From: Maribacter spongiicola
GTDB lineage: Bacteria > Bacteroidota > Bacteroidia > Flavobacteriales > Flavobacteriaceae
Length of the DNA: 64,000 nucleotides
Direction: 5' to 3'
Assembly: GCF_004364165.1 (NCBI RefSeq)
Contig: NZ_SOAY01000010.1
Coordinates: forward strand, 771,098 to 835,097
The notes beneath the pieces were generated by a model. That model saw only the letters and a list, made by a program, of their open reading frames with translations. It ran no database searches and was not told the origin of the DNA. Shown here in pieces: positions 2,082 through 29,495 of this stretch. Within the stretch, counting starts at the first letter, position 1. Each line of letters begins with the position of its first letter. The translations under genes were made by a program, and so were the position numbers.

Positions 2082-2096
2082 AATTATAAAATAGGT

Positions 2097-11326: not shown

Positions 11327-13672
11327 ATGTCCAAAAACTTTATGAGTAGCTCCCTCGGTTTTATTAATATGGCACTTGCTTGCTGTGTATTGTTGAGTTG
11401 TTCGTCAAAATCAGAAAAAACAATTGCCTTAAATGATAGTACTGGTCAAAACAGTATTCCCGAAAAAATTGATTTTACTTTTCATGTAAAACCCATATTA
11501 TCTGATCGTTGCTTTATATGTCATGGTCCTGATAAGAACGCTGTAGAAGGTGACCTTTCGCTTCATTCCGCAGAAGAAGCTTACAGAGCTTTGGGCGAGT
11601 TAAAAGATCACGCTGCCATTGTTCCTGGAGATGCTACTAAAAGTAGTTTGGTCGAGCGTATTTTTAGTGATGATTCGAATTTAATTATGCCTCCACCAGA
11701 ATCTAATTTAGTTTTAGAAGAATATGAAAAGAAGATTCTAGAAAAATGGATAGAACAAGGTGCTGAATATAAAACACATTGGGCATTTATTCCGCCAACA
11801 CAACAAGAAGTACCTGATAATGATAAGGAATGGGGGAATAATGAAATTGATGCTTTTGTGTTGAGTAAGTTGACAGAAAAAAATATGAGCCCGAGTGATC
11901 GGGCGAGTAGCGAGAAATTGCTGCGTAGAATTACATTCGATTTAACAGGACTTCCGCCAACTTTAAAGCAATTAGAAAAATTTGCGGCTGATCCTTCTAA
12001 AGAGAAGTACGAAGAAATAATAGATTCACTATTGTTATCTGTTGATTATGCGGAGAATATGGCAGCTGAATGGATGGATATTGCACGATATGCAGATACT
12101 CATGGTTATCAAGATGATTTTGAGCGCACTATGTGGCCTTGGCGAGATTGGGTAATTCATGCGTTCAAAGAAAATATGCCGTATGATCAATTTGTTACCT
12201 ATCAGTTAGCCGGAGATCTATTGCCAAATGCCAATCTAGAACAAATATTAGCTACCGGTTTTAACAGGAATCACAAAATTACTGCTGAAGGCGGCGTGAT
12301 TCCTGAAGAATACCGGGTTGAATATGTTGAAGATAGAAATACCACGCTAGGTACTGCATTTTTAGGATTGACCCTAGAATGTGCGCGTTGTCATGATCAT
12401 AAGTATGATCCCATCAGTCAAAAAGAGCACTTTCAATTCTATAGTTTTTTTAATAATATTCCTGAGAAAGGTTTGTTAGCAAATGCTGCAGAACTACCAG
12501 AACCTTATATAAAGGTTACTCCGAAAGAGGTAAATGACATCCTCGGATTCATTAATCTTAATAAAAGTGACATGAAAGAGGTGCCGGTAATGGTGATGAA
12601 AGAAATGGACCAGCCTAGGCCTACCTTTATATTGAAAAGAGGTATTTATGACCAGTATGGGGATGAAGTTTTTCCTGATACTCCTTCTTCTATTCTTCCT
12701 TTCGACGATTATCCGAAGAATAGATTAGGATTGGCACAATGGCTTTTTGAAGATAAGCATCCACTTACGGCAAGGGTTGCGGTCAATAGGTTGTGGCAGC
12801 GAATGTTTGGTAGCGGAATTGTGGCTTCTTCGTTTGATTTTGGTAATCAAGGGTCGTTACCTACGCATCCAGAATTGTTAGATTATTTGGCTATCAAATA
12901 TAAAAATGAAGGGTGGAATACTAGGGAGATGCTGAAGTACATTGCTATGTCTGAAGCCTATCAACAAGACACAAAAGCTAGTCCCGAGAAATTAGAACAA
13001 GATCCTGAAAATAAATATTTGGCACGAGCATCGCGATTACGTTTATCGTCTGAAGCAATTCGTGATCAAGCGCTAGCTTTTAGCGGATTGTTGAATAAAG
13101 AAGTTGGTGGACCAAGTGTAAAACCCTATCAGCCTGAAGGTATTTGGGAAGAAACTACCGGCGGCGGTGGCGGAAGTACTGCATCATATACTTTAAGTGA
13201 AGGCAAGGATGTCTATAGAAAAAGTATATATACATTTTGGAAACGTACCGTGCCACCACCTAGTATGATGACTTTTGATAGTAGCTCTAGAGATTATTGT
13301 TCTGTAAAAAGACAAGAAACCAATACTCCATTGCAAGCTTTGGTATTACTAAATGATCCACAGATAGTTGAAGCTGCGAGAGTAGCTGCTGTGGGTGAAA
13401 TGACTGCGCATCCCAATTCTGAGAATGAGCAGATAAAGACTTTGTTTTATAAAGCTACTTCTCGATTACCAAATGAAATTGAAGTACAGTCGCTGGTTGA
13501 TTATTATACTGAAATGTTGGGTAAAGTAGAGAGTGGTGAAGTTTCGGTAAGCGAGTATTTAAGTATTGGTAGAAGTGAAGTACCTACAGAACTGAATAAA
13601 GAGAAACTAGTGGCAATGACTCTAACTGCACACACGATTTTAAATTTAGACGAAACCATAAATAGAGGCTAA
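11327..13672 (+). CDS. PSCyt1-DUF1549-DUF1553 (PSD1) cytochrome lipoprotein
   Basis: This 781-residue exported lipoprotein has the lipobox LLSC with Cys25. Domains in order are a planctomycete-type cytochrome c domain with haem site CFICHGPDK (about residues 62-70), DUF1549 (ARYADTHGYQDDFERTMWPW), a second CxxCH, CARCHDHKYDPI near residue 351, and DUF1553/PSD1 (ARVAVNRLWQRMFGSGIV, then SMMTFDSSSRDYC and ETNTPLQALVLLNDP). These families are abundant in Planctomycetes, Verrucomicrobia and marine Bacteroidota and have no settled function. It heads a five-gene operon; the DUF1501 gene starts 2 bp after its stop, the standard partner arrangement. The haem motifs imply an electron-transfer or redox role outside the cytoplasm. 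Confidence 0.9.
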   Translation: MSKNFMSSSLGFINMALACCVLLSCSSKSEKTIALNDSTGQNSIPEKIDFTFHVKPILSDRCFICHGPDKNAVEGDLSLHSAEEAYRALGELKDHAAIVPGDATKSSLVERIFSDDSNLIMPPPESNLVLEEYEKKILEKWIEQGAEYKTHWAFIPPTQQEVPDNDKEWGNNEIDAFVLSKLTEKNMSPSDRASSEKLLRRITFDLTGLPPTLKQLEKFAADPSKEKYEEIIDSLLLSVDYAENMAAEWMDIARYADTHGYQDDFERTMWPWRDWVIHAFKENMPYDQFVTYQLAGDLLPNANLEQILATGFNRNHKITAEGGVIPEEYRVEYVEDRNTTLGTAFLGLTLECARCHDHKYDPISQKEHFQFYSFFNNIPEKGLLANAAELPEPYIKVTPKEVNDILGFINLNKSDMKEVPVMVMKEMDQPRPTFILKRGIYDQYGDEVFPDTPSSILPFDDYPKNRLGLAQWLFEDKHPLTARVAVNRLWQRMFGSGIVASSFDFGNQGSLPTHPELLDYLAIKYKNEGWNTREMLKYIAMSEAYQQDTKASPEKLEQDPENKYLARASRLRLSSEAIRDQALAFSGLLNKEVGGPSVKPYQPEGIWEETTGGGGGSTASYTLSEGKDVYRKSIYTFWKRTVPPPSMMTFDSSSRDYCSVKRQETNTPLQALVLLNDPQIVEAARVAAVGEMTAHPNSENEQIKTLFYKATSRLPNEIEVQSLVDYYTEMLGKVESGEVSVSEYLSIGRSEVPTELNKEKLVAMTLTAHTILNLDETINRG

Positions 13673-13674
13673 TT

Positions 13675-15168
13675 ATGAGCGAGAAGAAAATAGTAGAAGA
13701 ACGGTCTCTAATTTTAAATAGACGATCTTTTTTAGGAAAGGCAGCAATGGGTGTTGGCGGAATAGGATTAGCATCTTTATTAGGTACCAACTTATTTAGA
13801 AAGGGTGAAAACGGATTGTATACAGCCGATAGCGGACCAGCTGGAGTAAAAGGAGTATTAGATTCATTGCATCATCCATCAAAAATAAAAAGAGTTATTT
13901 ATCTTTTTCAAAGTGGTGGACCATCACAATTAGAATTGTTCGATTATAAACCGCTATTGAATCAGCGTAGAGGTGAAGATTTACCGGAGTCTATTCGTAA
14001 CGGACAACGTTTAACGGGTATGACCTCTGGTCAAGATAAATTCCCGCTTGTAGGCTCTAATTTTGAATTTCAAAGGCATGGTAAAAACGGAACTTATATA
14101 AGTGACTTATTGCCTTATACGGCTAAAATGGTTGATGATATTTGTATCGTAAAGTCCATGTATACCGAGGCGATAAATCATGATCCCGCAGTTACCTTCT
14201 TTCAAACAGGTTCTCAGCAACCGGGCAGACCTAGTATTGGGTCGTGGTTAAGTTATGGACTTGGTAGTGAGAATGAAAACTTACCGGCATTTACGGTGTT
14301 ACTTTCAAGAGGTTCGGGTAGACCAAACGGACAGCCATTATATACCAGACTTTGGGGTAACGGATTTTTACATTCCCTTCACCAAGGTGTGCAGTTTAGA
14401 GCGGCAAAAGATCCTGTTTTATATTTAAATGACCCAAAGGGGACTACAGCAGATGTCAAAAGATCTATGCTCGATAAATTGGCTGAGCTGAACGATCAGC
14501 ATTATCAAGAATCTAACGACCCAGAAATACAAAGTAGAATTGCCCAATACGAAATGGCATATAGAATGCAAACTTCTGTTCCTGATGTTATGAATACTGA
14601 AGGTGAACCAGATTATATCTATAAAATGTACGGGTCAGATGCTAAGATTCCTGGTACATTCGCAGCAAACTGTTTGTTAGCAAGACGTTTGGCAGAAAAA
14701 GATGTCCGTTTTATACAATTGTACCATATGGGTTGGGATCAGCATGATAATTTGCCCGGTGCCATTCAAAAACAGGCTAAAGATGTAGATCAAGCGTCTG
14801 CAGCTTTAATTGCCGATTTAAAACAACGTGGAATGCTAGAAGATACCTTGGTTGTTTGGGGTGGGGAGTTTGGTAGAACAAACTACTCTCAAGGTTTGCT
14901 AACAGATACTACTTATGGTAGGGATCACCACCCAAGATGCTTTACCATGTGGATGGCAGGTGGTGGTATTAAACCTGGTATTGTATACGGCGAAACTGAT
15001 GAATTTGGATATAATATTACTCAAAACCCAGTACACGTGCATGATTTTCAAGCGACTATGTTACATCAATTAGGAATTGATCACGAGAAATTCACCTATA
15101 AATATCAAGGTAGACGCTTTAGGTTAACTGATGTTGAGGGTCATGTGATTAAAGATATTTTATCTTAA
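13675..15168 (+). CDS. DUF1501 domain protein with Tat signal
   Basis: This 497-residue protein has a twin-arginine signal (LNRRSFLGKAAMGVGGIGLA, residues 15-34) and so is exported folded. The body is DUF1501, an alkaline phosphatase/sulfatase-like fold: IKRVIYLFQSGGPSQLELFD at the start, NHDPAVTFFQTGSQQPGRPS in the middle, and WGGEFGRTNYSQG with GRDHHPRCFTMWMAGGG near the C terminus. The Asp, His and Glu residues in these blocks resemble metal ligands. DUF1501 genes almost always follow PSD1 genes. The exact reaction is unknown. It overlaps the next gene by one base (TAATG). Confidence 0.9.
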   Translation: MSEKKIVEERSLILNRRSFLGKAAMGVGGIGLASLLGTNLFRKGENGLYTADSGPAGVKGVLDSLHHPSKIKRVIYLFQSGGPSQLELFDYKPLLNQRRGEDLPESIRNGQRLTGMTSGQDKFPLVGSNFEFQRHGKNGTYISDLLPYTAKMVDDICIVKSMYTEAINHDPAVTFFQTGSQQPGRPSIGSWLSYGLGSENENLPAFTVLLSRGSGRPNGQPLYTRLWGNGFLHSLHQGVQFRAAKDPVLYLNDPKGTTADVKRSMLDKLAELNDQHYQESNDPEIQSRIAQYEMAYRMQTSVPDVMNTEGEPDYIYKMYGSDAKIPGTFAANCLLARRLAEKDVRFIQLYHMGWDQHDNLPGAIQKQAKDVDQASAALIADLKQRGMLEDTLVVWGGEFGRTNYSQGLLTDTTYGRDHHPRCFTMWMAGGGIKPGIVYGETDEFGYNITQNPVHVHDFQATMLHQLGIDHEKFTYKYQGRRFRLTDVEGHVIKDILS

Positions 15169-16202
15169 TGGAGAGAAGAACTTTTATAAAAAATACTGCT
15201 GCTGCGTCAGCCGGCTTATTGACTTGTTCATCTGTGGGTGCAAATTTATTAGCGTATAAAGATGCTATTATAGGTCACGGTAGTCATCAATATAAGATTG
15301 ATTTAAATTGGGGTGCATTGAATCCGAATTACTATCCGGTGAACGATTGCCATGAAATGGTGCAAGATTCTAAAGGGCGAATTTTACTATTAACCAACCA
15401 CACCAAAAACAACATCATCGTTTATGACCGTTCAGGCAAGTTATTAGAAACTTGGGGTACCGATTATCCAGGTGCTCACGGGTTGACATTGAATGTTGAA
15501 AACGGTGAAGATTTCCTTTATATATCAGATAATACGCGTCATGAAGTTATTAAAACAACTATAGATGGTAGGGTAGTACAGTTTTTTACTTATCCGAAGG
15601 AATCAGGAAAATATACTTCTAAAGACGAATATATACCTACCGAAACTACCATTGCTGAAAACGGAGATGTATATATTGCCGATGGTTATGGGGCACAATA
15701 TATTATGCGGTATAATGCTAAAGGGGAGTTGCTACAAACTTTTGGTGGTAGGGGCGATGCAGATCACCTATTTAATAATGCACATGGAATTTGTATTGAT
15801 ACTAGAGGAGGAAAATCTCCTGAGCTTTTAATTACTGCCAGACAACAGAATAAGTTGAAACGTTTTACTATGGATGGTAAATTTATAGAAAGCATAGATT
15901 TACCCGGAGCGTTTATATGTAGACCTGTAATAAAGGGTGATAATGTGTATTTGGCAACCATTTGGTCTGGTGACGGATCTGATGGTACTGGCTTTATTTC
16001 CATTTTAGATAAAGACAATAAGTTGATTTCTGCTCCAGGCGGATGCACTCCTGTATATGAGAATAATGTGTTGAAGCCAATGTGTCAATCTATCAAAATA
16101 TTTACCCATCCGCATGATGTGTGTGTAGACGATGATGATAATTTATATGTAGCGCAGTGGAATTCAGGAAAAACATATCCTATAAAATTGAATAGAATAT
16201 GA
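15168..16202 (+). CDS. Exported NHL-repeat (six-bladed beta-propeller) protein
   Basis: This 344-residue protein starts with a Tat-like signal (MERRTFIKNTAAASAGLLTC); a Cys at 20 could also serve as lipid anchor. The rest reads as a beta-propeller of NHL type: DSKGRILLLTNHTKNNIIVY, then GEDFLYISDNTRHEVIK, NGDVYIADGYGAQYIMRYN, FNNAHGICIDTRG and FTHPHDVCVDDDDNLYVAQW. Such propellers bind ligands or act as lyases or lactonases; substrate and activity cannot be told here. It is embedded by one-base and four-base overlaps between the DUF1501 gene and the next gene, so it is translated with them. Confidence 0.82.
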   Translation: MERRTFIKNTAAASAGLLTCSSVGANLLAYKDAIIGHGSHQYKIDLNWGALNPNYYPVNDCHEMVQDSKGRILLLTNHTKNNIIVYDRSGKLLETWGTDYPGAHGLTLNVENGEDFLYISDNTRHEVIKTTIDGRVVQFFTYPKESGKYTSKDEYIPTETTIAENGDVYIADGYGAQYIMRYNAKGELLQTFGGRGDADHLFNNAHGICIDTRGGKSPELLITARQQNKLKRFTMDGKFIESIDLPGAFICRPVIKGDNVYLATIWSGDGSDGTGFISILDKDNKLISAPGGCTPVYENNVLKPMCQSIKIFTHPHDVCVDDDDNLYVAQWNSGKTYPIKLNRI

Positions 16203-16993
16203 TGAAGCGAATTATTTTTTCTCTTGTAGTAATGTTGTTCTGCAAAGTTGGAATATCTCAAAATGCAGCAACAGAAATGTTTCAATTAGCTTCACCGAAG
16301 ATGAATGTTTCCGCTGTTTTTTTCGATTCATTTACGACACTCGAAATTACTAAAGACTTACCTAATTCGGTTATAAAATATTCGTTGGATGGCAGCGAAG
16401 TAAATCAAGACTCTAAAGTTTATAATGAGCCATTAAAAATTGCAGAAAGCGCCGTAATAAGAGCAATTGTGTACCATCCTGATTATTTGGAAAGTGACGA
16501 GGTGCAATTAGAAGTGGTAAAAACTGTAAAAGAAAGTGCGATTAAATCACTTGTTTTAAATCCGCAGCCTAGTGAAAAGTATTCCGGTTTGGGAGCTACA
16601 GGGTTAATGGATTTAAAGAAAGGTAGTGCGCAATTTGGCGGAGACAAACAATGGTTGGGGTATCAAACTGATAGTGTTTTGGCAACGTTGCAATTAGAAA
16701 AGAATAGTGAGGTATCAAAGGTGGTGCTTAGCGCATTGACCAATCAGTCTAACTGGATATTCGCTCCCGGTAAAATTGAAGTTTTTTATGATGGAGAAAT
16801 AATTGGAACCGAAACATATTCTAATAGTAAAATAGAAGCTTCAAATAGTGCTACTTTTTTAACTGTACCAGTAGTAAAAGGTGCATATAAAACTCTAGAT
16901 GTAGTCATTTATTCGCTTAGCGAAATACCAGAATGGCATCAAGGTAAAGGCACGACGCCATGGTTGTTTATAGACGAAATTATAATTCAATAG
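16199..16993 (+). CDS. Secreted protein with chitobiase C-terminal-like and discoidin-like domains
   Basis: This 264-residue protein has a signal peptide (MMKRIIFSLVVMLFCKVGIS). Residues 35-105 resemble the chitobiase/beta-hexosaminidase C-terminal fold (IKYSLDGSEVNQDSKVYNEP, IRAIVYHPDYLES). Residues 120-264 resemble an F5/8 type C (discoidin) sandwich with KYSGLGATGLMDLKKGS, QWLGYQTDSVLATLQL, SNWIFAPGKIEVFYDG and a closing PWLFIDEIIIQ. The same two-domain module ends the next gene. It carries no catalytic motif, so a binding or scaffolding role in the extracellular complex is more likely. It overlaps the upstream gene by four bases. Confidence 0.75.
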   Translation: MMKRIIFSLVVMLFCKVGISQNAATEMFQLASPKMNVSAVFFDSFTTLEITKDLPNSVIKYSLDGSEVNQDSKVYNEPLKIAESAVIRAIVYHPDYLESDEVQLEVVKTVKESAIKSLVLNPQPSEKYSGLGATGLMDLKKGSAQFGGDKQWLGYQTDSVLATLQLEKNSEVSKVVLSALTNQSNWIFAPGKIEVFYDGEIIGTETYSNSKIEASNSATFLTVPVVKGAYKTLDVVIYSLSEIPEWHQGKGTTPWLFIDEIIIQ

Positions 16994-16994
16994 C

Positions 16995-19052
16995 ATGATT
17001 CAATTAGGAATACAAATAGGACACCTACATCCACTTTTTGTTCATTTACCCATCGGTATTATAATGATGGCGTTTTTGCTTGAAGTATATAGTCGATTTA
17101 TAGCAAAAAAATCAATCGATGAAGTCATTGAGTTTACATTGCTAATTGCTGGGGCTACCGCAATATTGTCATTAGGCACGGGTTGGCTGCTAGGTGAAGA
17201 AAGTGGGTATGATGAAGATTCTCTTTTTCTTCACCGTTGGATGGCAGTATCTTTTACGGTAACTACCATGTTACTCTATTTTGTAAAGCGTAGCAAGATT
17301 ACCTGGGTTAGTAAATCTTATGTTCCTCTATTTCTTATTGTTTTGGGCTTAATAAGTTTAACTGGGCATTTTGGAGGGAACATGACTCATGGCGAAGACT
17401 ATTTGTTCGTAGAAGAAAAGGAAGAACTAGTCATTACAAACATACAAGAGGCTCAGGTATATGCACAGGTAATTCAGCCTATTTTAGATAATAAATGTGT
17501 AAGCTGCCATAATGCAAATAAAGCCAAAGGCGGATTGCTTATGAGTACCCCTAATGAAATTCTTAAAGGTGGTGATTCGGGTAGTCTTTTGGATACTATC
17601 TCTGGTCATGAGCAAACATTGTTTTTAGAGCGTGTGCATTTGCCTCTAGAAAATGATGATCATATGCCGCCAAAAGGTAAGGTTCAATTAACAGACAATG
17701 AGAAGGTTTTGTTAGAATGGTGGATAGCCAATAAAAATTGCTTTGAATGCAAAGTGAACGAGCTGCCAACAGAAGGAAAATTAGCCGCAATACTAACTTC
17801 TCTTGAGCAAGATACTTCTGCATTGGCTGTTTTAGCCAAAGAGGCTGTTGAGATACCTAAAGAGTGGTTGCAGAATGTTAGAGCTGCAGGTATACCTGTA
17901 CAAAAACTTTCCGGGAAAAATCACTTATTAGCAGTGAACATGGCGAGTATGGATGCTATTACTGAAGACAAGTTAGAGGTGTTAGAAGAATATGCCCCTA
18001 ATATTATAGAGATGGATTTCGGTTTTAGTAATTTCAATGATGAGCTAATGTCGCAATTAAAACCGTTTAAGAATTTACTAAAATTAAAGCTACAGCATAC
18101 ACAGGTTACTGATGCTATTGCTGATGATTTGGCTGATTTTGAATTACTAGAATCACTGAATCTTTATGGTACTGCAGTAACCGATAAGTTGGTAATTGAA
18201 CTTAAAAAGAACAAAAAACTCCAAAGTATTTATTTATGGAACACAGGTGTTTCTACAGATGGTTTAGCGCAACTTCAAACAAATAACCCTGGGTTGACCA
18301 TACAGCAAATTGGTGCTGATGTCTTTGAAGCAACTATTTTAGATCCACCTACGATAATAAGTGATGTTAGTTTTTTTAGTGATCATCTCACTATTTCAAT
18401 TGAAAGCCTTTTTGAGGGCACCGAAATATACTACACCATTGATGGCTCTACGCCAACAGAAGCTTCTTTAAAATATGATACTGAAATTACTTTGCAAACC
18501 ACTGCTAATGTAAAAGCAATTGCCGTAAAAAAAGAGTGGAAGCCAAGTGTGATAGCCGAGCGTACATTCATTAAGAATAACATCGCTTACAATAATGTAG
18601 ATTTATTGACCGTACCAAATGAGAAGTATGCTGGTCAAAAGGGCAAGACTTTAATGGACCAGAAACGTGGGTCTATAAATTTTGTTGACGGCAATTGGCT
18701 GGGTTTTGAAGGCAAGCACTTAAATGCAATTGTTGAGTTAAAAGAACAGAATAAAATATCTAAAGTATCTATTGGTGCTTTATCGGCACCCGCAAGTTGG
18801 ATATTCTACCCTAAGGCATTTGTCGTTTCGGCTTCTAAAGACGGAGTTAATTTTAAAGAAATTGGAAGAAAAGAAATGGGTGAAGAAAACCCGAATGCAG
18901 AAGTTAAACTTACTTTTTTCGATTTAGATGTTACACCGACCGACGCTAAATATGTAAAATTGCAAATACAAAGTCCGTTGAAGAACCCTGCTTGGCATAC
19001 AGATCCAGGTGGTAAAAGTTGGATATTTATTGATGAAGTAGTGCTGAATTAA
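16995..19052 (+). CDS. Membrane-anchored cytochrome c: DUF2231, PSCyt1, LRR-like and CHB/discoidin-like domains
   Basis: This 685-residue mosaic begins with a four-helix DUF2231 membrane domain (IGHLHPLFVHLPIGIIMMAF, then GHFGGNMTHGE). A cytochrome c domain follows with one haem site, CVSCHNANKAKGG (about residues 168-180), and HMPPKGKVQLTDNEKVLLEW. A leucine-rich-repeat-like stretch spans about 330-430 (LLKLKLQHTQVTDAIADDL, LESLNLYGTAVTD). A chitobiase-C-like domain (IYYTIDGSTPTEASLKYD) and a discoidin-like module (KYAGQKGKTLMDQKRGS, SWIFIDEVVLN) end the protein. It is the last gene of the operon and the likely inner-membrane anchor linking the quinone pool or periplasm to the exported PSD1 cytochrome; that wiring is inference. 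Confidence 0.83.
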   Translation: MIQLGIQIGHLHPLFVHLPIGIIMMAFLLEVYSRFIAKKSIDEVIEFTLLIAGATAILSLGTGWLLGEESGYDEDSLFLHRWMAVSFTVTTMLLYFVKRSKITWVSKSYVPLFLIVLGLISLTGHFGGNMTHGEDYLFVEEKEELVITNIQEAQVYAQVIQPILDNKCVSCHNANKAKGGLLMSTPNEILKGGDSGSLLDTISGHEQTLFLERVHLPLENDDHMPPKGKVQLTDNEKVLLEWWIANKNCFECKVNELPTEGKLAAILTSLEQDTSALAVLAKEAVEIPKEWLQNVRAAGIPVQKLSGKNHLLAVNMASMDAITEDKLEVLEEYAPNIIEMDFGFSNFNDELMSQLKPFKNLLKLKLQHTQVTDAIADDLADFELLESLNLYGTAVTDKLVIELKKNKKLQSIYLWNTGVSTDGLAQLQTNNPGLTIQQIGADVFEATILDPPTIISDVSFFSDHLTISIESLFEGTEIYYTIDGSTPTEASLKYDTEITLQTTANVKAIAVKKEWKPSVIAERTFIKNNIAYNNVDLLTVPNEKYAGQKGKTLMDQKRGSINFVDGNWLGFEGKHLNAIVELKEQNKISKVSIGALSAPASWIFYPKAFVVSASKDGVNFKEIGRKEMGEENPNAEVKLTFFDLDVTPTDAKYVKLQIQSPLKNPAWHTDPGGKSWIFIDEVVLN

Positions 19053-19100
19053 ATTCAGCACCGAACGAGGAGGAATCCGTTAGAATGGTCTGTTGACTAA

Positions 19101-22100
19101 TTAATTTTTCTGTACTTCAAAAAACTGCAGCGCATCATTATTGTTTCCTACTAAAAAGTACTCTTTTTGACCATTGTTTATCCATACTAGCTTTTTGGCA
19201 TCTTTATCAGCAAAGAATCCTATTTCCGCACCTCGCTTGCCGGTAAAAGAACCTTTTCCATCTCCGAGCAAAAGAATACCTGTTCCAGCATCGTTTCTCG
19301 GCGTTTCTATCTCTGATACGTATAAATTACCAACAGCAAGAACATCTAATGCTCCATCGCCATTAAAATCCTTTACAAGCATGTCGTTTAGGTTAGATAG
19401 CTGCGCCATATTTGGCAAATCTAACATTTTGAATTGACCATTCCCTAAATTCTCGATGTAGACCGAAGCAAAGGTGTCGGCACTATAATGCAAGGAGTTC
19501 TTTAATTTTTCTTCTCCGTATACATCTTTCAACTCCATAGACGCAAAAGCATCGTACTTAACAATTTTTTTCTTTAAGTCTGGTACTTGTTCCGAAGAAC
19601 AAGAGAAACCTCGTAGTGGATAATGTTTTTCTTTGTTGTAATACCCCAGAACGATATCGCTGTTACCGTTGGCATCAAAATCATTATAGTACACGTCAAA
19701 AGGTTTGTCTGTGCTCGTTTTGTACTTGTAGTTCAAACCTAAATTACCTGCGATATAATCCATATCACCATCATTATCAAAATCGCCTTGTTCAATACTA
19801 AACCACCAGCCCTTTGTTGCATTGAAATTTTCAACATCAGTTATAGTAAGTTTTCCATTATTATTTTCGAAAATGGTTATTGGCATCCATTCGCCTACGA
19901 CCATTAAATCTAGATCTTTGTCATTATCATAATCGCTCCAAATAGCATCTGAAATCATACCAATATTTAATAATTCTGGAGATAATTGCTCAGTATTATT
20001 TGATAGTTGACCGTTATCATTTATGAGCAACATACTAGAAGACGGATTTGGGTATTGCTGTGGTGTATGTCTACCACCAACAAAAAGATCAATATCTCCA
20101 TCACCATCATAGTCGGCAGATTTCACTACAGACCCACTAATTCTACTCGCATTAAGTATGGCTCCTTTTTTGAACGTTCCATTACCTTCGTTTAAATAGA
20201 GTCTGTCAGTATAATGGAAATCATTTTTCGGGTATTCGTTGCCGCCACTTACTACATATAAATCTTTTAATCCGTCGTTATTGATGTCAACAAATAAGGC
20301 ATCAACATCTTCATAGCCTGCTTCTTTTTGCCAGAATGCAGTCTGACTTTCTTTAAAGTTGCCATCTTTTTGTTGAACGAATAGGATAGGAGCTTGATTT
20401 GCCGCACCACCAATGTAGAAATCATCTAGTCCGTCGTTATTAATATCACCTGCAGTTAATGCCGGTCCGAATTGCGATAGTTTATGCGGAAGTAGTACTT
20501 GCTTCTCAAAGTCATCGAATTTGTTTTCTTGATGTTGAAATTGAGCAGAGAAAGTCGTTGTTCTATCTGCAAAAAGGTATTTATTTGATTCTTCAGGTTT
20601 TTGAGGGGTAGTTTCCGAATCATTAGAAAAAATTTGTAATAACTGATTGGCTTTTATATCCCTTTTTATAGTGGTATTTCCATTAGGCCAAAGAATACTA
20701 AGACTATCAATTTTAGTCAAAGAATTTAGACCAAAATGAAGGGTAGACTCACTTGTGGAATAAATGCCACGTACGTTTGTAGATTCTAAAGTTTGAACAC
20801 CTTGTTTAGTGTAAATGTTTACTCTAGACCCAAAAACTGGTTTGTTAGCTTGGTCTTTCAGGGTTATTCTTATATAGTTTTTGTCAGATTGTGTCTCTGA
20901 ATTGTTTCTATATAAGAAAGCTTCGTTGTTAATGTTATTGGTAACTAAGTCTAAATCACCATCATTATCAAAATCAGCATAGGCAGAACCGTTAGAAAAA
21001 GACTCATCATCTAAGCCCCATTCATTGGAACTGTTTGCAAATTCTAAGTCTCCTTTATTTTTATAAGCATAATTTTTTAATGGTTGGGAAGGAACCATGT
21101 TAACCGCTTTTTCAAGATCGACGATATCCCAAATGCTTTTTACATTTTGAGCGTTCGGATTCTTTTGAAGCCATTGAGCTCTGGTCGTATTTATGTAGTT
21201 CGTCACATTTTTATCGGCATCTGTATTTCTTATATCTCTTAGGAGTCCGTTTGTGACGTACGTATCTTTAAGGCCATCATTGTCAAAATCGGCAATAAGG
21301 TTTGACCAGCTCCAATCGGTTGCTGCCATACCTGTAAATTGAGCAATATTGCTAAAAGTTTCATTGCCATTGTTTAGTTGTAAGGTGTTGTACATATATT
21401 GATAACCACCACCATCTTCAACTACTTTCCAGAAAGAGCTAATGTTCATTCCGCTCATGTTAGATTTTAGTCTAAAGTTGTCTTCAGAAACCATATCTAA
21501 AACAAATATGTCTAAGTTTTGATCATTATTTATATCGGCAACATCAACGCCCATGCTATAATATGAGGTTTGTTTTAATGCACTCTTTTCAATGCTTGAA
21601 AATGTTCCATCTTGGTTGTTTAGAAATAGAAAATCTGGAGCATAAAAATCATTTGCAACATAAAGGTCTGTCCATCCATCATTATTTATATCACTTGCTG
21701 AAACTGCATTCGGGAAACCGGTTTTGTTTATTCCTGCATGTCCCGAGACATCTTGAAAAGTAGCTCCATTATTTTTGTATAATTTTAAAGAATATTCAGG
21801 TATTAGAAGATTGTTGGCATCATGATATTTAGACAAACTACCTGGGTTCGGTGGTTGTGTTAGTAGAAATAAATCTAGTAGTCCATCTTTGTCATAATCT
21901 AAAAATGTAGCATGTCTTGTTCTTTCGGTATTTGCTATTAGAAATTCTTCAGCCTTTTCTTCAAAAGTTCCATCGCCCTTGTTAATGTAGAGTAGGTTTC
22001 TTCGCCATGCTGGGTTTTCATCGTACAATTCTCTGCTGACATAGATATCTAAGTGTCCGTCATTGTTAATATCTGCAACAGTTACGCCAGTAGACCATCC

Positions 22101-22439
22101 ATCGAAATTTTTAATACCTGCTTTTGCCGTAATATCCTCAAAAACTAAATTTCCTTTGTTTAAGTACAATTTATCAGGAACCATATTTCCTGCAAAAAAA
22201 ATATCTTCTAGTCCGTCATTATTAAAATCGCCCACACCAACACCTGCCCCACCGTAAAAATTGGCATACGCGAATATATTTTTGTCCTTGTCGTCTTTAA
22301 TAATATTGTTGAAATCAATACCAGTTACATCTGATTTAAGTAACGTAAATAGTGTACTGTTGTTCTCTATCTTTTTAGGCGCTTGTTCGCAACATAAAAA
22401 CAGTGAGGAGCAGAGGTAGAATAAATGCCTGATTTTCAT
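19101..22439 (-). CDS. FG-GAP/VCBS repeat lipoprotein with ASPIC/UnbV domain (CRTAC1-like)
   Basis: This 1112-residue lipoprotein has the lipobox FLCC near residue 17. It consists of many FG-GAP/VCBS blades with calcium-loop motifs DFNNDGLEDIFF, DINNDGHLDIYV, DYDKDGLLDLFL and DYDNDKDLDLMVV, forming two beta-propellers. Between them, about residues 525-610, is an ASPIC/UnbV domain (FGSRVNIYTKQGVQTLEST, then HFGLNSLTKIDSLSILWPNG). Such proteins are commonly encoded directly after SusC/SusD pairs in marine Bacteroidota and are thought to be surface-exposed binding proteins. It is the last gene of the minus-strand locus (118 bp after susD) and is convergent with the cytochrome operon. Confidence 0.9.
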   Translation of the reverse strand: MKIRHLFYLCSSLFLCCEQAPKKIENNSTLFTLLKSDVTGIDFNNIIKDDKDKNIFAYANFYGGAGVGVGDFNNDGLEDIFFAGNMVPDKLYLNKGNLVFEDITAKAGIKNFDGWSTGVTVADINNDGHLDIYVSRELYDENPAWRRNLLYINKGDGTFEEKAEEFLIANTERTRHATFLDYDKDGLLDLFLLTQPPNPGSLSKYHDANNLLIPEYSLKLYKNNGATFQDVSGHAGINKTGFPNAVSASDINNDGWTDLYVANDFYAPDFLFLNNQDGTFSSIEKSALKQTSYYSMGVDVADINNDQNLDIFVLDMVSEDNFRLKSNMSGMNISSFWKVVEDGGGYQYMYNTLQLNNGNETFSNIAQFTGMAATDWSWSNLIADFDNDGLKDTYVTNGLLRDIRNTDADKNVTNYINTTRAQWLQKNPNAQNVKSIWDIVDLEKAVNMVPSQPLKNYAYKNKGDLEFANSSNEWGLDDESFSNGSAYADFDNDGDLDLVTNNINNEAFLYRNNSETQSDKNYIRITLKDQANKPVFGSRVNIYTKQGVQTLESTNVRGIYSTSESTLHFGLNSLTKIDSLSILWPNGNTTIKRDIKANQLLQIFSNDSETTPQKPEESNKYLFADRTTTFSAQFQHQENKFDDFEKQVLLPHKLSQFGPALTAGDINNDGLDDFYIGGAANQAPILFVQQKDGNFKESQTAFWQKEAGYEDVDALFVDINNDGLKDLYVVSGGNEYPKNDFHYTDRLYLNEGNGTFKKGAILNASRISGSVVKSADYDGDGDIDLFVGGRHTPQQYPNPSSSMLLINDNGQLSNNTEQLSPELLNIGMISDAIWSDYDNDKDLDLMVVGEWMPITIFENNNGKLTITDVENFNATKGWWFSIEQGDFDNDGDMDYIAGNLGLNYKYKTSTDKPFDVYYNDFDANGNSDIVLGYYNKEKHYPLRGFSCSSEQVPDLKKKIVKYDAFASMELKDVYGEEKLKNSLHYSADTFASVYIENLGNGQFKMLDLPNMAQLSNLNDMLVKDFNGDGALDVLAVGNLYVSEIETPRNDAGTGILLLGDGKGSFTGKRGAEIGFFADKDAKKLVWINNGQKEYFLVGNNNDALQFFEVQKN

Positions 22440-22556
22440 AATTACAAGATACTATTTTAAACAAAAAAAAGGAGAGTTTCCTCCCCTTTTCAAACTCAAT
22501 AAAAATTAACTCAACGATTATGAGAGGTTTCACTCAAAAACCAAACTTAATTACTG

Positions 22557-24035
22557 TTATTGCACATCCCACCATACTCTTGTGGTAAGTACATCTGGAC
22601 CTTGTGCAGCTACTGCAGCTGCATAATTTTCTGCATTTACACTTGCTTCGCTTTCAGAATACGTAAGTCTTCTTGGAATTGTACCACCTGTTTCATTACC
22701 TGGGTAATTTACAGGAGTTAATACAGGGAAACCTGTTCTTCTCCAGTTAGAAAAAGTTTCATATTCATTTAAAAATGTAGCTGCCCAATACTGTGTGCTG
22801 ATCTGCTCGATAGCATTTGCTGCATCGTACGGATTATCTGTTAAGTATGTTGCAATTGCGTCATCTTCTATTATTGCAGCATCGCTAAATAGGGCTAGTT
22901 GCTTCATTGCTGCAGTAACACCATTATTGTAATGTGTTTCTGCATCGCCAGCTAAGCCCCAACGTACATTAGCTTCAGCTAGCATGAATTCTACTTCAGC
23001 ATAGGTTTGAAAAATCATTGGTGCATCAAAACCAGCGAGAATAGCTCTGTTAGGTTCTGCATAATTATCTGTGTTTTCTTCACCAGTTAATTCTAATAAT
23101 AAAGCACTATCTAATCCATTTGGAAAACCTATTAAATCAGCAACTTCAGTACTACCATCAGATCTTCTTGCCGCAAGAATTGGAAGTCTTGGATCATTAC
23201 CATCTTTTAGAAAATTGATAAAAGTATCACTCATTCTTGGATTACCGTCGGCATCAAATACTTCAGATATACCATTTCTATTATCTTGGTCATGCTTTAA
23301 GAAGAAAATATCTTCGTTTGAAGTCATAACACCGCCTGCAATAGCTTTAGTTGCCCAAGCTTGAGAAGCAGCGGCATCTACTTTTATTAAACGTAAGCCT
23401 AAGCGCAACATTAAAGAATTTGCCAATCTTTTCCATTTAGCTTGATCACCACCATAAATAACATCTGCAGCACCAAATTCTGAAGTACCACTAGATAATG
23501 CAGCAGCAGATTCTTCCAATTCTTTTAGCATATCTGCATAAATATCACTTTGCTTGTCATATTTAGGAAGAAAAATACCGTCGATTACAGCTTTACCTGC
23601 TTCAGAATAAGGAACATCACCATGCAAGTCAGTTATTCTAGAAAAAGCGAATACCCTTAAAATACGAGCAATTGCTTTCATTTCTTCAGGAGATTCTTCT
23701 TCATCTAACTGAACAATTAAATCTTGAGCGGTTTTTATGGCATTACCATAATATCTATCTAAAAGAGATGATGCGTAACCTCTGTTCCAAGTATACTTAT
23801 CTCCAGACCAATATCCTGCTGTTGTTGCAATGTGTTGCATCATTGTTGACTGGTAAATCATACCTGCACGCCAGTTATCATATCGCTCACTAGATATATA
23901 TTTTTCTAATGCAGTAAGTTTATTAGCTGATGCTATTTGTGCAGATTTCGTTGGATTTACGTTTAGTTCTTCAAACCCGTCATCGCAAGCGCCTACTATA
24001 AGCGCCATTATTAATAAAAGAAATACTTTTTTCAT
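22557..24035 (-). CDS. SusD/RagB family nutrient-binding outer-membrane lipoprotein
   Basis: This 492-residue surface lipoprotein has the lipobox VGAC (Cys at about 17), then DDGFEELNVNPTKS, typical of the SusD-like group. TPR-type helices follow, with blocks such as ARILRVFAFSRITDLHGDVPYSEA, WKRLANSLMLRLGLRLIKVD and MIFQTYAEVEFMLAEANVRW. SusD proteins sit on top of the SusC porin and capture the substrate. The gene follows susC by 12 bp. The substrate cannot be read from sequence; this SusD group is not restricted to polysaccharides. Confidence 0.94.
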   Translation of the reverse strand: MKKVFLLLIMALIVGACDDGFEELNVNPTKSAQIASANKLTALEKYISSERYDNWRAGMIYQSTMMQHIATTAGYWSGDKYTWNRGYASSLLDRYYGNAIKTAQDLIVQLDEEESPEEMKAIARILRVFAFSRITDLHGDVPYSEAGKAVIDGIFLPKYDKQSDIYADMLKELEESAAALSSGTSEFGAADVIYGGDQAKWKRLANSLMLRLGLRLIKVDAAASQAWATKAIAGGVMTSNEDIFFLKHDQDNRNGISEVFDADGNPRMSDTFINFLKDGNDPRLPILAARRSDGSTEVADLIGFPNGLDSALLLELTGEENTDNYAEPNRAILAGFDAPMIFQTYAEVEFMLAEANVRWGLAGDAETHYNNGVTAAMKQLALFSDAAIIEDDAIATYLTDNPYDAANAIEQISTQYWAATFLNEYETFSNWRRTGFPVLTPVNYPGNETGGTIPRRLTYSESEASVNAENYAAAVAAQGPDVLTTRVWWDVQ

Positions 24036-24047
24036 TTCGCTTTTTTT

Positions 24048-27000
24048 TTAAAATTTTAGGTTGATGCTCATACCATAATTTCTTGAAGCTGGAACACCAA
24101 AATATTCCAATCCTTGAGAGTTTCCTACAGTGTATGCACTTTCAGGGTCAATATTATCTATGCTTCTAGAAATGTAAAATAAGTTAGAAGCAATGAATGA
24201 TACATTTACGTTAGTTAAGAATACATTTTCTAAAGCTCTTTTAGGTAATGAATAACCTAAACTAAGTTGTCTGAATTTAATGTAATCTGAATCTTCTACA
24301 AATTCTTCGGCAATATCATTGACCTCTCCCCAATAGGTAGATAGATTTTCTGGTGCAACAGTTGTTGTAAATGGTTGATCTGTAGCATTGTCAATACCTG
24401 ATACTGTCAAGCCTGTTTCTCTACCTTCTGTTGTGATTTTATGAAGACCGTTACCATAAAGAATAGTATTGGTACCTGAGAATATCTGTCCGCCGAATTT
24501 ACCATCGATTAAAATGTTAAGGCTAAGGTTCTTGTAAGTAAAAGTGTTTGTGAAACCCATTGTTAATGGAGCAACACCTTCACCTAATATTTTACGTTCA
24601 CCTTCTACAGCTCTTGGTACACCATCGGCATCTATATCATATTTTATAACACCATTGGCATCTCTCTCGTAAGATACACCTATTATGGTACCGTATCTTT
24701 CACCAACTCTGTGCGTTATTCTAACATTCTGCGTACGTGGCTCATCTAAGTTTACGTCTGAATCAACGTCATCGGTAGCTACTACTAAACTTTCATTGTA
24801 TGCCCCATTGATAGAAACATTCCAGCTGAAATTGTCTGTTCTTATTGGGGTACCGCTTACCAAAAATTCAAAACCTTTGTTAGAGACTTCACCAAGGTTT
24901 GCACTAGCACCGCCATAACCTGAATATGGAGATGTTGCAACATCTACAATATCATTGGTAGTGTTGTTCTTGTAGTAAGCAAGGTCAAACGATAGTCTGT
25001 TATTGAACATGCGTAGGTCTAAACCTATTTCTGTTTCATTTTTACTAAATGCCACTAAGTTTGCATTTGGCACAGTACCGCCGTTTATAGCACCTGTAGG
25101 CTGACCTTGTAGAGGAACTCCGAAAATTCCATATGTCAATCCTAATGCATATGGATTTTGAGCTCCACCGGCAACTTCAGAGTAACCACCTCTTAATTTA
25201 AGAAAGCTAATGAAATTAGGTAGTTCTAATGCGTCTGAAATGATTAAACTTCCATTAATTGAAGGATAAAAATCATCATTTGGAGTTGTTTTGCCTGGGA
25301 AAGATAACGTTGAGAACCAGTCATTTCTTCCTGTAAACGTTACATAGGCCCAACGGTCGTATGATAATTCTATAGATCCGTATAATGAACCAATTTTTCT
25401 TTCAGAATATTCTCTGCTTCTTGATTGAGACACCGTATTGCCAATATCTTCTAACCCTGGTACAATAAAATCATTACCTCCAAGAAATAAATTTTCACTT
25501 TTTAGATGATTGGTGTTTGCACCTACCAATGCAGATATTGCAAATTTATCTGTTATATCTTTGTCAGCAGCTAAAATAATATCAGCATCTACTTGGTTTG
25601 TTCTTCTTTCAGAATCACTGATGCCACCTCTTGGCTTAAAACCAGTTCCAAAAGGTTCAACTTCAGTTCTTCTAATGATATCATTATCAATACCTATTCT
25701 ACCTGTTAAAGACAACCAATCGGTAAATTCATATCGTAAAGATGTAGAAGCTATGATTCTATTTCTTTGATCTTTTCTTCTAAAATTATAAGCCGAAAAG
25801 TATGGGTTGGTAACAAAGGTATTATCAGTAAACTGACGTTCTAAACCGTTCTCATCTGTTGCCGGTAAAAGGGTGGTAACATCTAAATTACCAGGTAATA
25901 GACCTGCGGAGAAGTTAGCATTACCTGGACTATCAGATAATCTAGCTCTATTCTGTACTTTTTCAATAATGTATTTCACATTAACACTACTAGTTAATTT
26001 TTCAGACATTACAGAGCTTGCGTTTAAAGAAAAAGATTTTCTATTTAAACCGGCGTTTGGTAAAATATCTTCGTTGTTAAGGTCTGAAGCAGAAAGTCTA
26101 TACGTAAGATTTTCTGAAGCATTCGTTAAAGCAACAGTATTTATAAAGGTTGATCCTGTTCTGTAGAACTTATCGATATTATTACCTGTATAAGAATATG
26201 GTCTTGAAACTCCGTCAAATTGAGGTACAAGGCTACCGTCAAATTTTGGTCCCCAAGAGCTGAAACCTGCTTCAAGAGCTCCTGCTTGATTTGCAGGTGT
26301 TTCTCCTCTAATTCCTTGTCCGTAATCGGTTTGGTAATCTTGTAATGAAGTGTTTACTTGGTCAAAAGTTACTTGGCTACTTACTTCTACACCAAAACCT
26401 TGTTGGTCTTTACCAGATTTGGTAGTAACAATAATAACACCACCTGCAGCACGGGAACCGTAAAGCGCAGATGCGGCACCACCTTTAAGAACAGAAATAG
26501 ATTCAATGTCGTCTGGGTTTAAGCTAGAAATACCATCACCACCATCAGATCCACCCCACATACTAGCAGCACCATTATTGGCATTGTTAATAGGGATACC
26601 ATCTACAACATATAAAGGTTGGTTTTCTCCAGAAAGTGAACTTGATCCACGAATAATAACTCTACTAGAACCTGCGGCTCCCGTAGAATTCTGTGAGATG
26701 TTAACACCGGCAATCTTACCCTGTAAAGAGTTAATAGCGTTTGGTGTTTTAATAGTTGCAATTTCTTCTCCACCAACCTCGGTTAAAGAATAGCCTAATG
26801 CTTTAGTTTCTTTACGAATACCTAAAGCAGTTACCACTACTTCATCTAGTTCGCTTGCATCTTCGGAAATAGAAGTATTTATGGTAGATTTACCATTGAC
26901 GCTAACTTCTTTAGACTTATACCCTAAAGAAGAGAATACCAATGTTGCATTTGCATCAACGCTAATAACGTAATTTCCATCAAAATCGGTAGAAGTACCG

Positions 27001-27152
27001 TTAGATGTGCCTTTTTCAACAACGTTTACACCTGGCAAAGGTGATCCTGTATCGTCTGTGACAATACCTGATACGCTTTTAGTCTGACCTGTTACTCCTT
27101 GGAAAAAAAGCAGTAAAATAACAGTCAAAAAACTTAAGAATTTTTTGTTCAT
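24048..27152 (-). CDS. SusC/RagA family TonB-linked outer-membrane transporter
   Basis: This TonB-dependent outer-membrane transporter has about 1034 residues. I chose the ATG at 27152, which gives a clean signal peptide (MNKKFLSFLTVILLLFFQGV); an upstream ATG at 27233 adds 27 residues without signal-peptide character. After the signal comes a carboxypeptidase-regulatory-like domain (VSGIVTDDTGSPLPGVNV), then the TonB box/plug region (DELDEVVVTALGIRKETKALGY, PLYVVDGIPINN, ALYGSRAAGGVIIVTTK) and the 22-strand barrel ending in NYGMSINLKF. It imports the ligand delivered by the SusD partner. The upstream GHL10 and CBM9-like genes run in the same direction, with about 145 bp between. Confidence 0.95.
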   Translation of the reverse strand: MNKKFLSFLTVILLLFFQGVTGQTKSVSGIVTDDTGSPLPGVNVVEKGTSNGTSTDFDGNYVISVDANATLVFSSLGYKSKEVSVNGKSTINTSISEDASELDEVVVTALGIRKETKALGYSLTEVGGEEIATIKTPNAINSLQGKIAGVNISQNSTGAAGSSRVIIRGSSSLSGENQPLYVVDGIPINNANNGAASMWGGSDGGDGISSLNPDDIESISVLKGGAASALYGSRAAGGVIIVTTKSGKDQQGFGVEVSSQVTFDQVNTSLQDYQTDYGQGIRGETPANQAGALEAGFSSWGPKFDGSLVPQFDGVSRPYSYTGNNIDKFYRTGSTFINTVALTNASENLTYRLSASDLNNEDILPNAGLNRKSFSLNASSVMSEKLTSSVNVKYIIEKVQNRARLSDSPGNANFSAGLLPGNLDVTTLLPATDENGLERQFTDNTFVTNPYFSAYNFRRKDQRNRIIASTSLRYEFTDWLSLTGRIGIDNDIIRRTEVEPFGTGFKPRGGISDSERRTNQVDADIILAADKDITDKFAISALVGANTNHLKSENLFLGGNDFIVPGLEDIGNTVSQSRSREYSERKIGSLYGSIELSYDRWAYVTFTGRNDWFSTLSFPGKTTPNDDFYPSINGSLIISDALELPNFISFLKLRGGYSEVAGGAQNPYALGLTYGIFGVPLQGQPTGAINGGTVPNANLVAFSKNETEIGLDLRMFNNRLSFDLAYYKNNTTNDIVDVATSPYSGYGGASANLGEVSNKGFEFLVSGTPIRTDNFSWNVSINGAYNESLVVATDDVDSDVNLDEPRTQNVRITHRVGERYGTIIGVSYERDANGVIKYDIDADGVPRAVEGERKILGEGVAPLTMGFTNTFTYKNLSLNILIDGKFGGQIFSGTNTILYGNGLHKITTEGRETGLTVSGIDNATDQPFTTTVAPENLSTYWGEVNDIAEEFVEDSDYIKFRQLSLGYSLPKRALENVFLTNVNVSFIASNLFYISRSIDNIDPESAYTVGNSQGLEYFGVPASRNYGMSINLKF

Positions 27153-27298
27153 AAATGATTGAGTTAAGTTAGTTGTATTTAATAAGGGATTAAGGTGAGC
27201 TATAATTTGTTGAATGATGAAAAATTTCGACAAATAACTATTGTGAAAAGCTTAACAACGTGTTAACAAAAAGTAAAATTTAAAAAATTAAACAAAAA

Positions 27299-28432
27299 TC
27301 AAGGTTTTTGTGAAGCCTTTATTACCTGCCATTGTTCTTCAGTAATTGCAGGTCCATCAAAGAAAGATACTCCGTTTGCACCGTTGCTTTTTGCTTGATT
27401 TATAGCTTCTTTTAACTGATTAACAGTCATTTCTGGCACATAAATACCAGTATGTAATTCCGTATTTCTACCTTTTAAATCTTCAACCCCTTGTTTGGTG
27501 GCGTACCCGATCCAATCAATTTCTTCATTGTAGAAGACATTATAAATCATTGGTAATACAGCATCTACTTTCCATTTATCCCATCTTTGACGTACCATAT
27601 GGTCTGCCATTTCTGGATAAGGAAATACTGCTGCAGTCAATATTTTTCCGTTTTCGTGTGTAATTTTATAGGCTTCGTCTACAATAGCCTTTACCTTATT
27701 TAATCTGAAATTTTTCCATTCCATATCAATCGCTGGGTTTGTGAAGTCATTCGGATTTTTGTGATGTTCTTTTTCGAACTCAGCCGTACATACATCGCAA
27801 TAGCAAAAGTCATATTCTGGTAGTTCAGTTTCTTGCTTTAAGTCATATTTAGGTAGCAACCCAATAGGTAAAAAGATGTCTGAGTATCTTATATAATCTA
27901 AATGAAAACTAGCTACACCTTCTACTTTTGCCAACCCTTCTATTAAGCCTAGAATATGTTCGCGAGATTCTTTTCTGGTAGGGCAAAGCCATTTGTAATA
28001 ACCTACATATGGTGGTTCGTCAAAGCAAGATTTGCCATCTCTACTTACCGCATACCATTCTGGGTGTTGTTCTGCGACTTTATCACCAGGGCGATTCATG
28101 GTAAACATCCACGCATGAACTTCTAAATTGTGTTTTTTGGCTATTGGTACTAGTCTAGCTAATAGTTCTGGGTCTCCGTACGTGTTAATTAAAATTGCAT
28201 CTAATCCGTTATCGCCATACTTTTTAAATTCCTCGTCAAATGAGGCATCGGTTCTGGTTTTTTCAGCAGTAATCCATGTCCAAAATTTAAAAGGCTCCTT
28301 TTCAACTTCAGCGTTTTCGCTGGTGGTTGTAAATCCTGTTTCTTTTTTTGTTTCACATGAAATATTCAGAGTGAATATAAATAGGGCCAGAAAAGGTAAA
28401 AATTTAGTTGTTTTTATCATGGTGGGTTTCAA
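27299..28432 (-). CDS. GHL10-type putative glycoside hydrolase lipoprotein
   Basis: This lipoprotein of about 377 residues has the lipobox NISC. A start at the ATG 28420 (MIKTTKFLPF) is as good as 28432. The mature part is a TIM-barrel of the GHL10/DUF187 group: FKFWTWITAEKTRTDASFDE, NGLDAILINTYGD, LEVHAWMFTMNRPGD, and FHLDYIRYSD, the conserved HLDYIRY strand of the family, followed by AVFPYPEMADH and VDAVLPMIYNVFY. An unusual CYCDVCTAEF cluster lies in the middle and might bind metal. Members are thought to cleave glycans, but specificity is undefined. It overlaps the end of the upstream CBM9-like gene, so the two are translationally coupled. Confidence 0.8.
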   Translation of the reverse strand: MKPTMIKTTKFLPFLALFIFTLNISCETKKETGFTTTSENAEVEKEPFKFWTWITAEKTRTDASFDEEFKKYGDNGLDAILINTYGDPELLARLVPIAKKHNLEVHAWMFTMNRPGDKVAEQHPEWYAVSRDGKSCFDEPPYVGYYKWLCPTRKESREHILGLIEGLAKVEGVASFHLDYIRYSDIFLPIGLLPKYDLKQETELPEYDFCYCDVCTAEFEKEHHKNPNDFTNPAIDMEWKNFRLNKVKAIVDEAYKITHENGKILTAAVFPYPEMADHMVRQRWDKWKVDAVLPMIYNVFYNEEIDWIGYATKQGVEDLKGRNTELHTGIYVPEMTVNQLKEAINQAKSNGANGVSFFDGPAITEEQWQVIKASQKP

Positions 28433-29471: not shown

Positions 29472-29495
29472 TGAATTTTTATTGATGATTGCCAT

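Follow-up and report, generated by a model that had tools for sequence, protein, structure and literature searches.

The window, by which we mean the whole 64,000-nucleotide stretch of Maribacter spongiicola DNA analysed here, contains a cassette of five open reading frames, genes A to E, all on the + strand (Table 1). An earlier, sequence-only reading had placed five tightly packed genes at exactly these positions, and the ORF coordinates and Pfam assignments agree with the packing, the protein families and the CxxCH motifs that it had claimed. Genes A and B are separated by a 2-bp gap, B and C overlap by one base and C and D by four, and D is followed by E after a 1-bp gap. With Pfam domains accepted above curated cut-offs, gene A comprises PSCyt1, PSCyt2 (DUF1549; 283.9 bits) and PSD1 (DUF1553; 317.2 bits), gene B is a DUF1501 protein, gene C an NHL protein and gene D a CHB_HEX_C_1/Fn3_assoc protein, while gene E combines DUF2231, PSCyt1, CHB_HEX_C_1 and F5_F8_type_C, its DUF2231 match lying barely over the cut-off (29.6 versus 26.4 bits). 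Gene A has CxxCH sites at residues 62 and 352, and gene E has one at residue 168. By eye, gene A has an LLSC lipobox, gene D a hydrophobic start, and genes B and C arginine pairs at residues 16-17 and 3-4, respectively.

Table 1. Positions in the window of the cassette genes, the membrane region of gene E and the convergent neighbours.
Feature	Position	Strand	Description
Gene A	11327..13672	+	Lipoprotein: PSCyt1 (CFICH 62-66, candidate distal M121), PSCyt2 (CARCH 352-356), PSD1
Gene B	13675..15168	+	Tat-signal DUF1501 protein; putative remote sulfatase relative, His169 at the nucleophile position
Gene C	15168..16202	+	Tat-like NHL beta-propeller; optional cassette member
Gene D	16199..16993	+	CHB_HEX_C_1 glycan-binding-type protein; resembles the gene E tail
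Gene E	16995..19052	+	DUF2231 (4 TM helices), PSCyt1 (CVSCH 168-172, M224), LRR, CHB_HEX_C_1, CBM32-like tail
Gene E TM region, residues 12-132	17028..17390	+	Invariant H12, H17, H80, H125, H132
Convergent neighbour genes, outside the operon	19101..29495	-	FG-GAP/ASPIC, SusD, SusC, GHL10, CBM9

The genome from which the window derives encodes a c-haem assembly protein, TatC, two COX1-family oxidases and an NrfD-type protein. Elsewhere in the window, a DUF11/CHU_C type IX secretion cargo protein is encoded at 36-3020, adjoining a PorP/SprF gene, and a molybdopterin oxidoreductase gene is found at 37210-39507.

A homologue of gene A in Maribacter litoralis is 89% identical to it. In an alignment of 80 gene A sequences ranging from Bacteroidota to Planctomycetota, C62, C65, H66 and M121 are invariant, as are C352, C355, H356, H358 and D361. 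M121 is thus a candidate distal ligand of the first haem, judged from the alignment. No invariant Met accompanies the second CxxCH in the same 80 sequences, a property that would suit a reactive haem, and we propose from the sequence that gene A may encode a catalytic haem-c enzyme. Its structure is predicted with high confidence (mean pLDDT 89.8, pTM 0.89), and a Foldseek search of the model against the PDB returned zero matches at E 0.001 or better, the top match having an E of 2.0. The PSCyt1 domain is the sole part of gene A with solved relatives, its haem domain aligning with those of FoxE, hydrazine synthase alpha and a one-haem cytochrome; for the PSCyt2-PSD1 core, PDB searches by sequence and by fold gave no solved relative.

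Gene E contains features that the sequence-only reading had not described, namely its PSCyt1 domain, a leucine-rich-repeat region, a CBM32/hexosaminidase-like tail and a set of invariant histidines. The structural model places helices at residues 12-35, 39-66, 74-99 and 109-132, and with a mean pLDDT of 86.9 and a pTM of 0.42 its domain arrangement is unreliable, so that we trust the single domains only. In 27 E proteins C168, C171, H172 and M224 are invariant. Across 79 sequences the loops at 33-44 and 97-112 carry a net positive charge and the N-terminus a slightly positive one, and the loop at 64-78 and the stretch after helix 4 are net negative. This distribution suggests that both ends of the membrane region face the periplasm, which would bring H12, H17, H80, H125 and H132 close to the periplasmic face and next to the c-haem domain.

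These five histidines, invariant and near one side of the membrane region, are candidate ligands for b-type haem. Among the DUF2231 regions fused to PSCyt1, retrieved with a model that was itself based on fused sequences, H12 and H17 are present in 78/78 with the region present and H80, H125 and H132 in 79/79; a CxxCH is found in 78/78 of the ORFs. Stand-alone DUF2231 proteins (PF09990) share the four-helix region and the first three histidines. In the 29 best-scoring stand-alone proteins without CxxCH, obtained by searching 80 genomes from the phylum, H12 is present in 29, H17 in 28 and H80 in 29, but H125 in only 3 and H132 in 2 (Fisher p near 1e-22, with relatedness ignored and near-duplicates included). 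Gene E thus differs from stand-alone DUF2231 by the fusion to a PSCyt1 c-haem domain and by the two extra histidines, and the rarity of H125 and H132 in stand-alone proteins suggests a b-type haem beside the c haem. Gene E may accordingly carry one or two b-type haems contacting quinone, to judge from the sequence pattern, although the five histidines could instead bind another metal or a quinone.

Gene D is 30% identical to the gene E tail, a similarity that the sequence-only reading had also left unmentioned. A stand-alone gene D occurs in 16 of 120 relatives and in the M. spongiicola genome itself, and every genome with a stand-alone D has an E homologue that shares this tail, although in G008 a contig end truncates one. 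Outside this count of 16, another frame, of 233 residues, is present in G111. In gene C, His37, His62, His104, His206 and His316 are invariant in 17 sequences; the protein matches NHL propellers, one of them a peptidylglycine-amidating enzyme, with no clear functional lead.

In formylglycine sulfatases the catalytic Cys or Ser lies in a C/S-x-P/A-x-R signature and is accompanied by a metal-binding Asp pair. The C-terminal part of DUF1501 aligns to sulfatases (hhalign probability 94, 104 columns), and a PDB search with DUF1501 gave weak sulfatase matches only (best E 0.08). In both of two forced full-length alignments to sulfatases, H169 stands opposite the catalytic Cys and is separated from an invariant Thr by the same nine-residue spacing as in sulfatases, in a stretch of low confidence; in one of the two, also at low confidence, the metal-binding Asp pair falls opposite a Gly-Gly of DUF1501. 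The formylglycine motif is not found, the site reading His169-Asp-Pro-Ala-Val in this low-confidence N-terminal alignment. We dropped gene B as a working sulfatase on account of His169 where the catalytic Cys is expected, and read DUF1501 as a probable remote relative of the sulfatase fold that would not act as a sulfatase. The M. spongiicola genome also holds a fourth, partial DUF1501 match (C1:636731-637186), inside a 576-aa frame.

This kinship, together with the binding domains in D and E, would fit a non-redox complex that binds and hydrolyses glycans, with DUF1501 as the active hydrolase and the CxxCH haems or cysteines structural or sensory. We regard such a complex as rather improbable: besides the low-confidence His at the catalytic Cys position, A and E alike keep their CxxCH and Met residues without exception, and the linked membrane protein has five conserved histidines.

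We surveyed linkage in the M. spongiicola genome and 120 relatives. A DUF2231-PSCyt1 match lies within 10 kb of 90 of the 98 DUF1501 matches, leaving eight without such a neighbour, and conversely 90 of the 95 DUF2231-PSCyt1 matches have DUF1501 within 10 kb. Gene maps of 33 regions, 30 of them from relatives, revealed the contiguous five-gene block in 15 of the 120 relatives. Ten same-genus loci (L054-L063) carry the block in place, behind rpsP-rimM, and the remaining blocks are at L064, L065, L066, L067 and L069. In a second survey, of the best 80 of 587 loci with taxonomic groups assigned by hand, we kept the 61 named loci whose PSD1 ORF was of sufficient length and which left 4.5 kb of room, and dropped 19. 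Among the Bacteroidota loci of this set, DUF1501 is the next ORF in 42/47, DUF2231-PSCyt1 lies within four ORFs in 40/47, an NHL gene is present in 19/47 and a stand-alone D in 6/47. Two of the five DUF1501 misses reflect a PSD1 duplication (L093) and a PSD1 ORF that is split (L130), and two Lunatimonas loci (L111, L112) have neither DUF1501 nor DUF2231. Among the planctomycete and verrucomicrobial loci of the same best 80 of 587, DUF1501 sits beside PSD1 in 13/14 and a DUF2231 gene in 0/14.

The conserved core is PSD1-DUF1501-DUF2231/PSCyt1(-LRR), and the NHL and small binding proteins are optional. The view of the five genes as a single unit, with all five expected together in neighbourhoods across Bacteroidota, therefore holds for this core and for the 15 relatives with the whole block, but an obligate five-gene unit is ruled out by the 41/47 named Bacteroidota loci that lack a stand-alone D and the 28/47 that lack NHL. 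In one family relative (L038:2417-9005) genes for thioredoxin (DsbH), a sulfatase and an asparaginase precede that for an E-type protein, and the region lacks any match to PSD1 or DUF1501. A GFO/IDH/MocA oxidoreductase gene (L042:3138-4475) immediately precedes a second-type PSD1 cassette, and in M. spongiicola itself ORFs of 2327 and 1600 aa coincide with two weak PSCyt1 matches (L053; contig 2, 138001-158000).

Gene fusions join the A and E types in single proteins. We picked nine extra regions in which a DUF2231-PSCyt1 match lay inside a long ORF, and in eight of these (L187-L194) DUF2231-PSCyt1-PSCyt2-PSD1 is a single protein. The same fusion is found in the M. spongiicola genome (L052) and in Rhabdobacter (L097), bringing the total to ten, and a DUF1501 gene adjoins all ten. 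The ninth region encodes a 1211-aa protein, DUF2231-PSCyt1-PSD3-PSD5-PSD4-PSCyt3-PSD2 (L195:1053-4688), in which DUF2231-PSCyt1 is joined to the second class of planctomycete-type haem protein. The PSD1 part of the fusion proteins, 25% identical to gene A in L052, keeps the CxxCH and has lost the His and Asp that follow it, which counts against a universal reading of the invariant residues of gene A. In view of the ten fusions, the two haem proteins very likely work together at the inner membrane; that the membrane module exchanges electrons with the fused haem cores has strong but indirect support. An electron route pairing a membrane haem protein with a haem lipoprotein, as the sequence-only reading had proposed, is supported by the 90/98 linkage and the ten fusions.

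The same reading had directed this route to an extracellular substrate. The LLSC lipobox of gene A, seen by eye, and the cassette's FG-GAP and SusD neighbours, present in 7 of the 10 in-place loci of the genus, would accord with a surface lipoprotein A that swaps electrons with an extracellular polymer through E. However, PSD1 is fused to an inner-membrane domain in ten proteins, a hydrophobic anchor replaces the lipobox in four gene A homologues (L049, L050, L069 and L070; by eye), and the porin and multihaem cytochrome of a porin-cytochrome extracellular conduit are both absent from the five genes. The fusions and the anchored homologues point to an inner-membrane location for the core of the enzyme, on the periplasmic side, and we consider exchange at the cell surface very unlikely.

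Clues to the substrate come from binding domains and neighbouring genes. Laminin_G_3 was found in 3/3 long PSD1 homologues scanned, and a carbohydrate-binding-type module is weakly detected in the fusion. In 7 of the 10 in-place same-genus loci the gene immediately after E encodes a sulfatase, and the other 3 have a sulfatase gene no more than three ORFs away; in L065-L067 E is not directly followed by one in the same operon. In the window itself no sulfatase follows gene E, and 48 bases part E from the convergent FG-GAP gene (19052-19101). FG-GAP and SusD genes follow the cassette in 7/10 of the in-place loci, with SusC visible in 6 (L056 is cut). Between E and the sulfatase, two loci encode a DUF7133-HEAT-cytochrome c-F5/8 protein (L061:4928-8778 and L056:11314-14106), and L061 also has a xylose-isomerase-like gene there.

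For varied Bacteroidota we scanned 100 of 234 genes near the cassette and 100 of 109 far genes, leaving out 23 loci with a PVC or similar label and 18 that were redundant or truncated, and listed the 25 commonest families of each set. Near genes include AraC regulators (5 per 100), cytochrome c (4), sulfatase (2) and GH92 (2), and far genes MFS transporters (5), GH92 (2), 3-keto-disaccharide hydrolase (2) and CBM9 (2); sulfatase is not among the 25 commonest far families. On these 100 + 100 genes and 25 commonest families each, carbohydrate families show no clear enrichment near the cassette, and the mixed flanks beyond the genus mark the sulfatase link as a Maribacter feature. A carbohydrate or its fragment is our best guess for the substrate, held with modest confidence. 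A parallel with glucoside 3-dehydrogenase was considered and dropped, as the literature search gave nothing usable.

Taken together, we propose that the products of the operon form a redox complex that is anchored to the inner membrane, faces the periplasm, and in which a substrate is oxidised and electrons pass to the aerobic chain, a reading to which we assign a probability of roughly 55%. Gene A would be the catalytic subunit, its first haem, with Cys/His and the invariant Met, relaying electrons and its second, without an invariant Met, being the likely reaction site. The regular partner of A, gene B, may have a degenerate sulfatase fold and serve to shape or prepare the substrate. Substrate binding would fall to genes C and D and the tail of E, the most likely ligand being a carbohydrate, or a fragment of one, taken up into the periplasm. 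Gene E would serve as the electron exit, its four-helix domain probably holding b-type haem near the periplasmic face and passing electrons between its own c-type haem and a quinone or a soluble cytochrome c.

The sequence does not fix the direction of flow. E could oxidise quinol towards cytochrome c, and the two proteins matched by PSCyt1, FoxE and hydrazine synthase alpha, differ in their chemistry; electrons from quinol might run via E to A and reduce a periplasmic substrate such as a peroxide, an oxidised sugar or a quinone. We judge this reverse flow unlikely, on the plausibility argument that carbohydrate-binding domains and haem-copper oxidases better fit oxidation of an electron-rich substrate. 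Oxidation of the substrate, with electrons entering the aerobic chain, is the most likely direction in the redox complex that we favour. More tentatively, the cytochrome-fused DUF2231 could be a new b/c electron-transfer module of the membrane, by which Bacteroidota connect both planctomycete haem classes (PSCyt2-PSD1, and PSCyt3-PSD2-5 in L195) to quinone or cytochrome c, and PSCyt2-PSD1 a new-fold, haem-c periplasmic oxidase of glycans or glycan fragments; we offer both with considerable doubt.

The PSCyt/PSD domains received their names in 2004, according to excerpts of the literature. PSD1 and DUF1501 proteins are numerous in Planctomycetes; for Rhodopirellula baltica, PMC2754498 gives a count of 41 for PSD1 and likewise for PSCyt2, and the literature excerpts describe the function as unknown. 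A link of PVC haem proteins with carbohydrate-binding modules and sulfatases is suggested in PMC5615132, and parts of PMC5615132 and PMC2754498 suggest a redox role for PSCyt/PSD proteins with carbohydrate-binding modules. Such proteins were thus already known from these excerpts, as was a DUF1501 genomic module (Kamneva et al. 2012, as relayed in parts of PMC4452313 and PMC4960237); PMC11495043, in the text available, uses PSCyt1 merely as a cytochrome label. The literature search found no paper combining DUF1501 with DUF1553, and the excerpts that it returned hold no report of DUF2231 with PSCyt-type cytochromes, DUF2231 being named in one database paper.

The PVC clusters of PSCyt1/PSCyt2/PSD1 and DUF1501, as excerpted in PMC5615132, share the PSD1 architecture described here and, in our survey, the adjoining DUF1501. 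Beyond these clusters, Bacteroidota have the DUF2231-PSCyt1-LRR protein, in part the NHL and small binding proteins, and single-gene fusions with DUF2231. New here are the fusions, H125 and H132 in cytochrome-fused DUF2231, a PSD1 without a PDB fold match and the probable kinship of DUF1501 with sulfatases.

The Bacteroidota cassette offers a handle on these proteins, with a membrane partner, interacting parts named by the fusions and invariant residues to mutate, and Maribacter provides culturable hosts for the study of PSD1 and DUF1501. If it is true that PSD1 is a new-fold haem enzyme, an oxidative step hidden so far in the degradation of organic matter in the sea would become testable.
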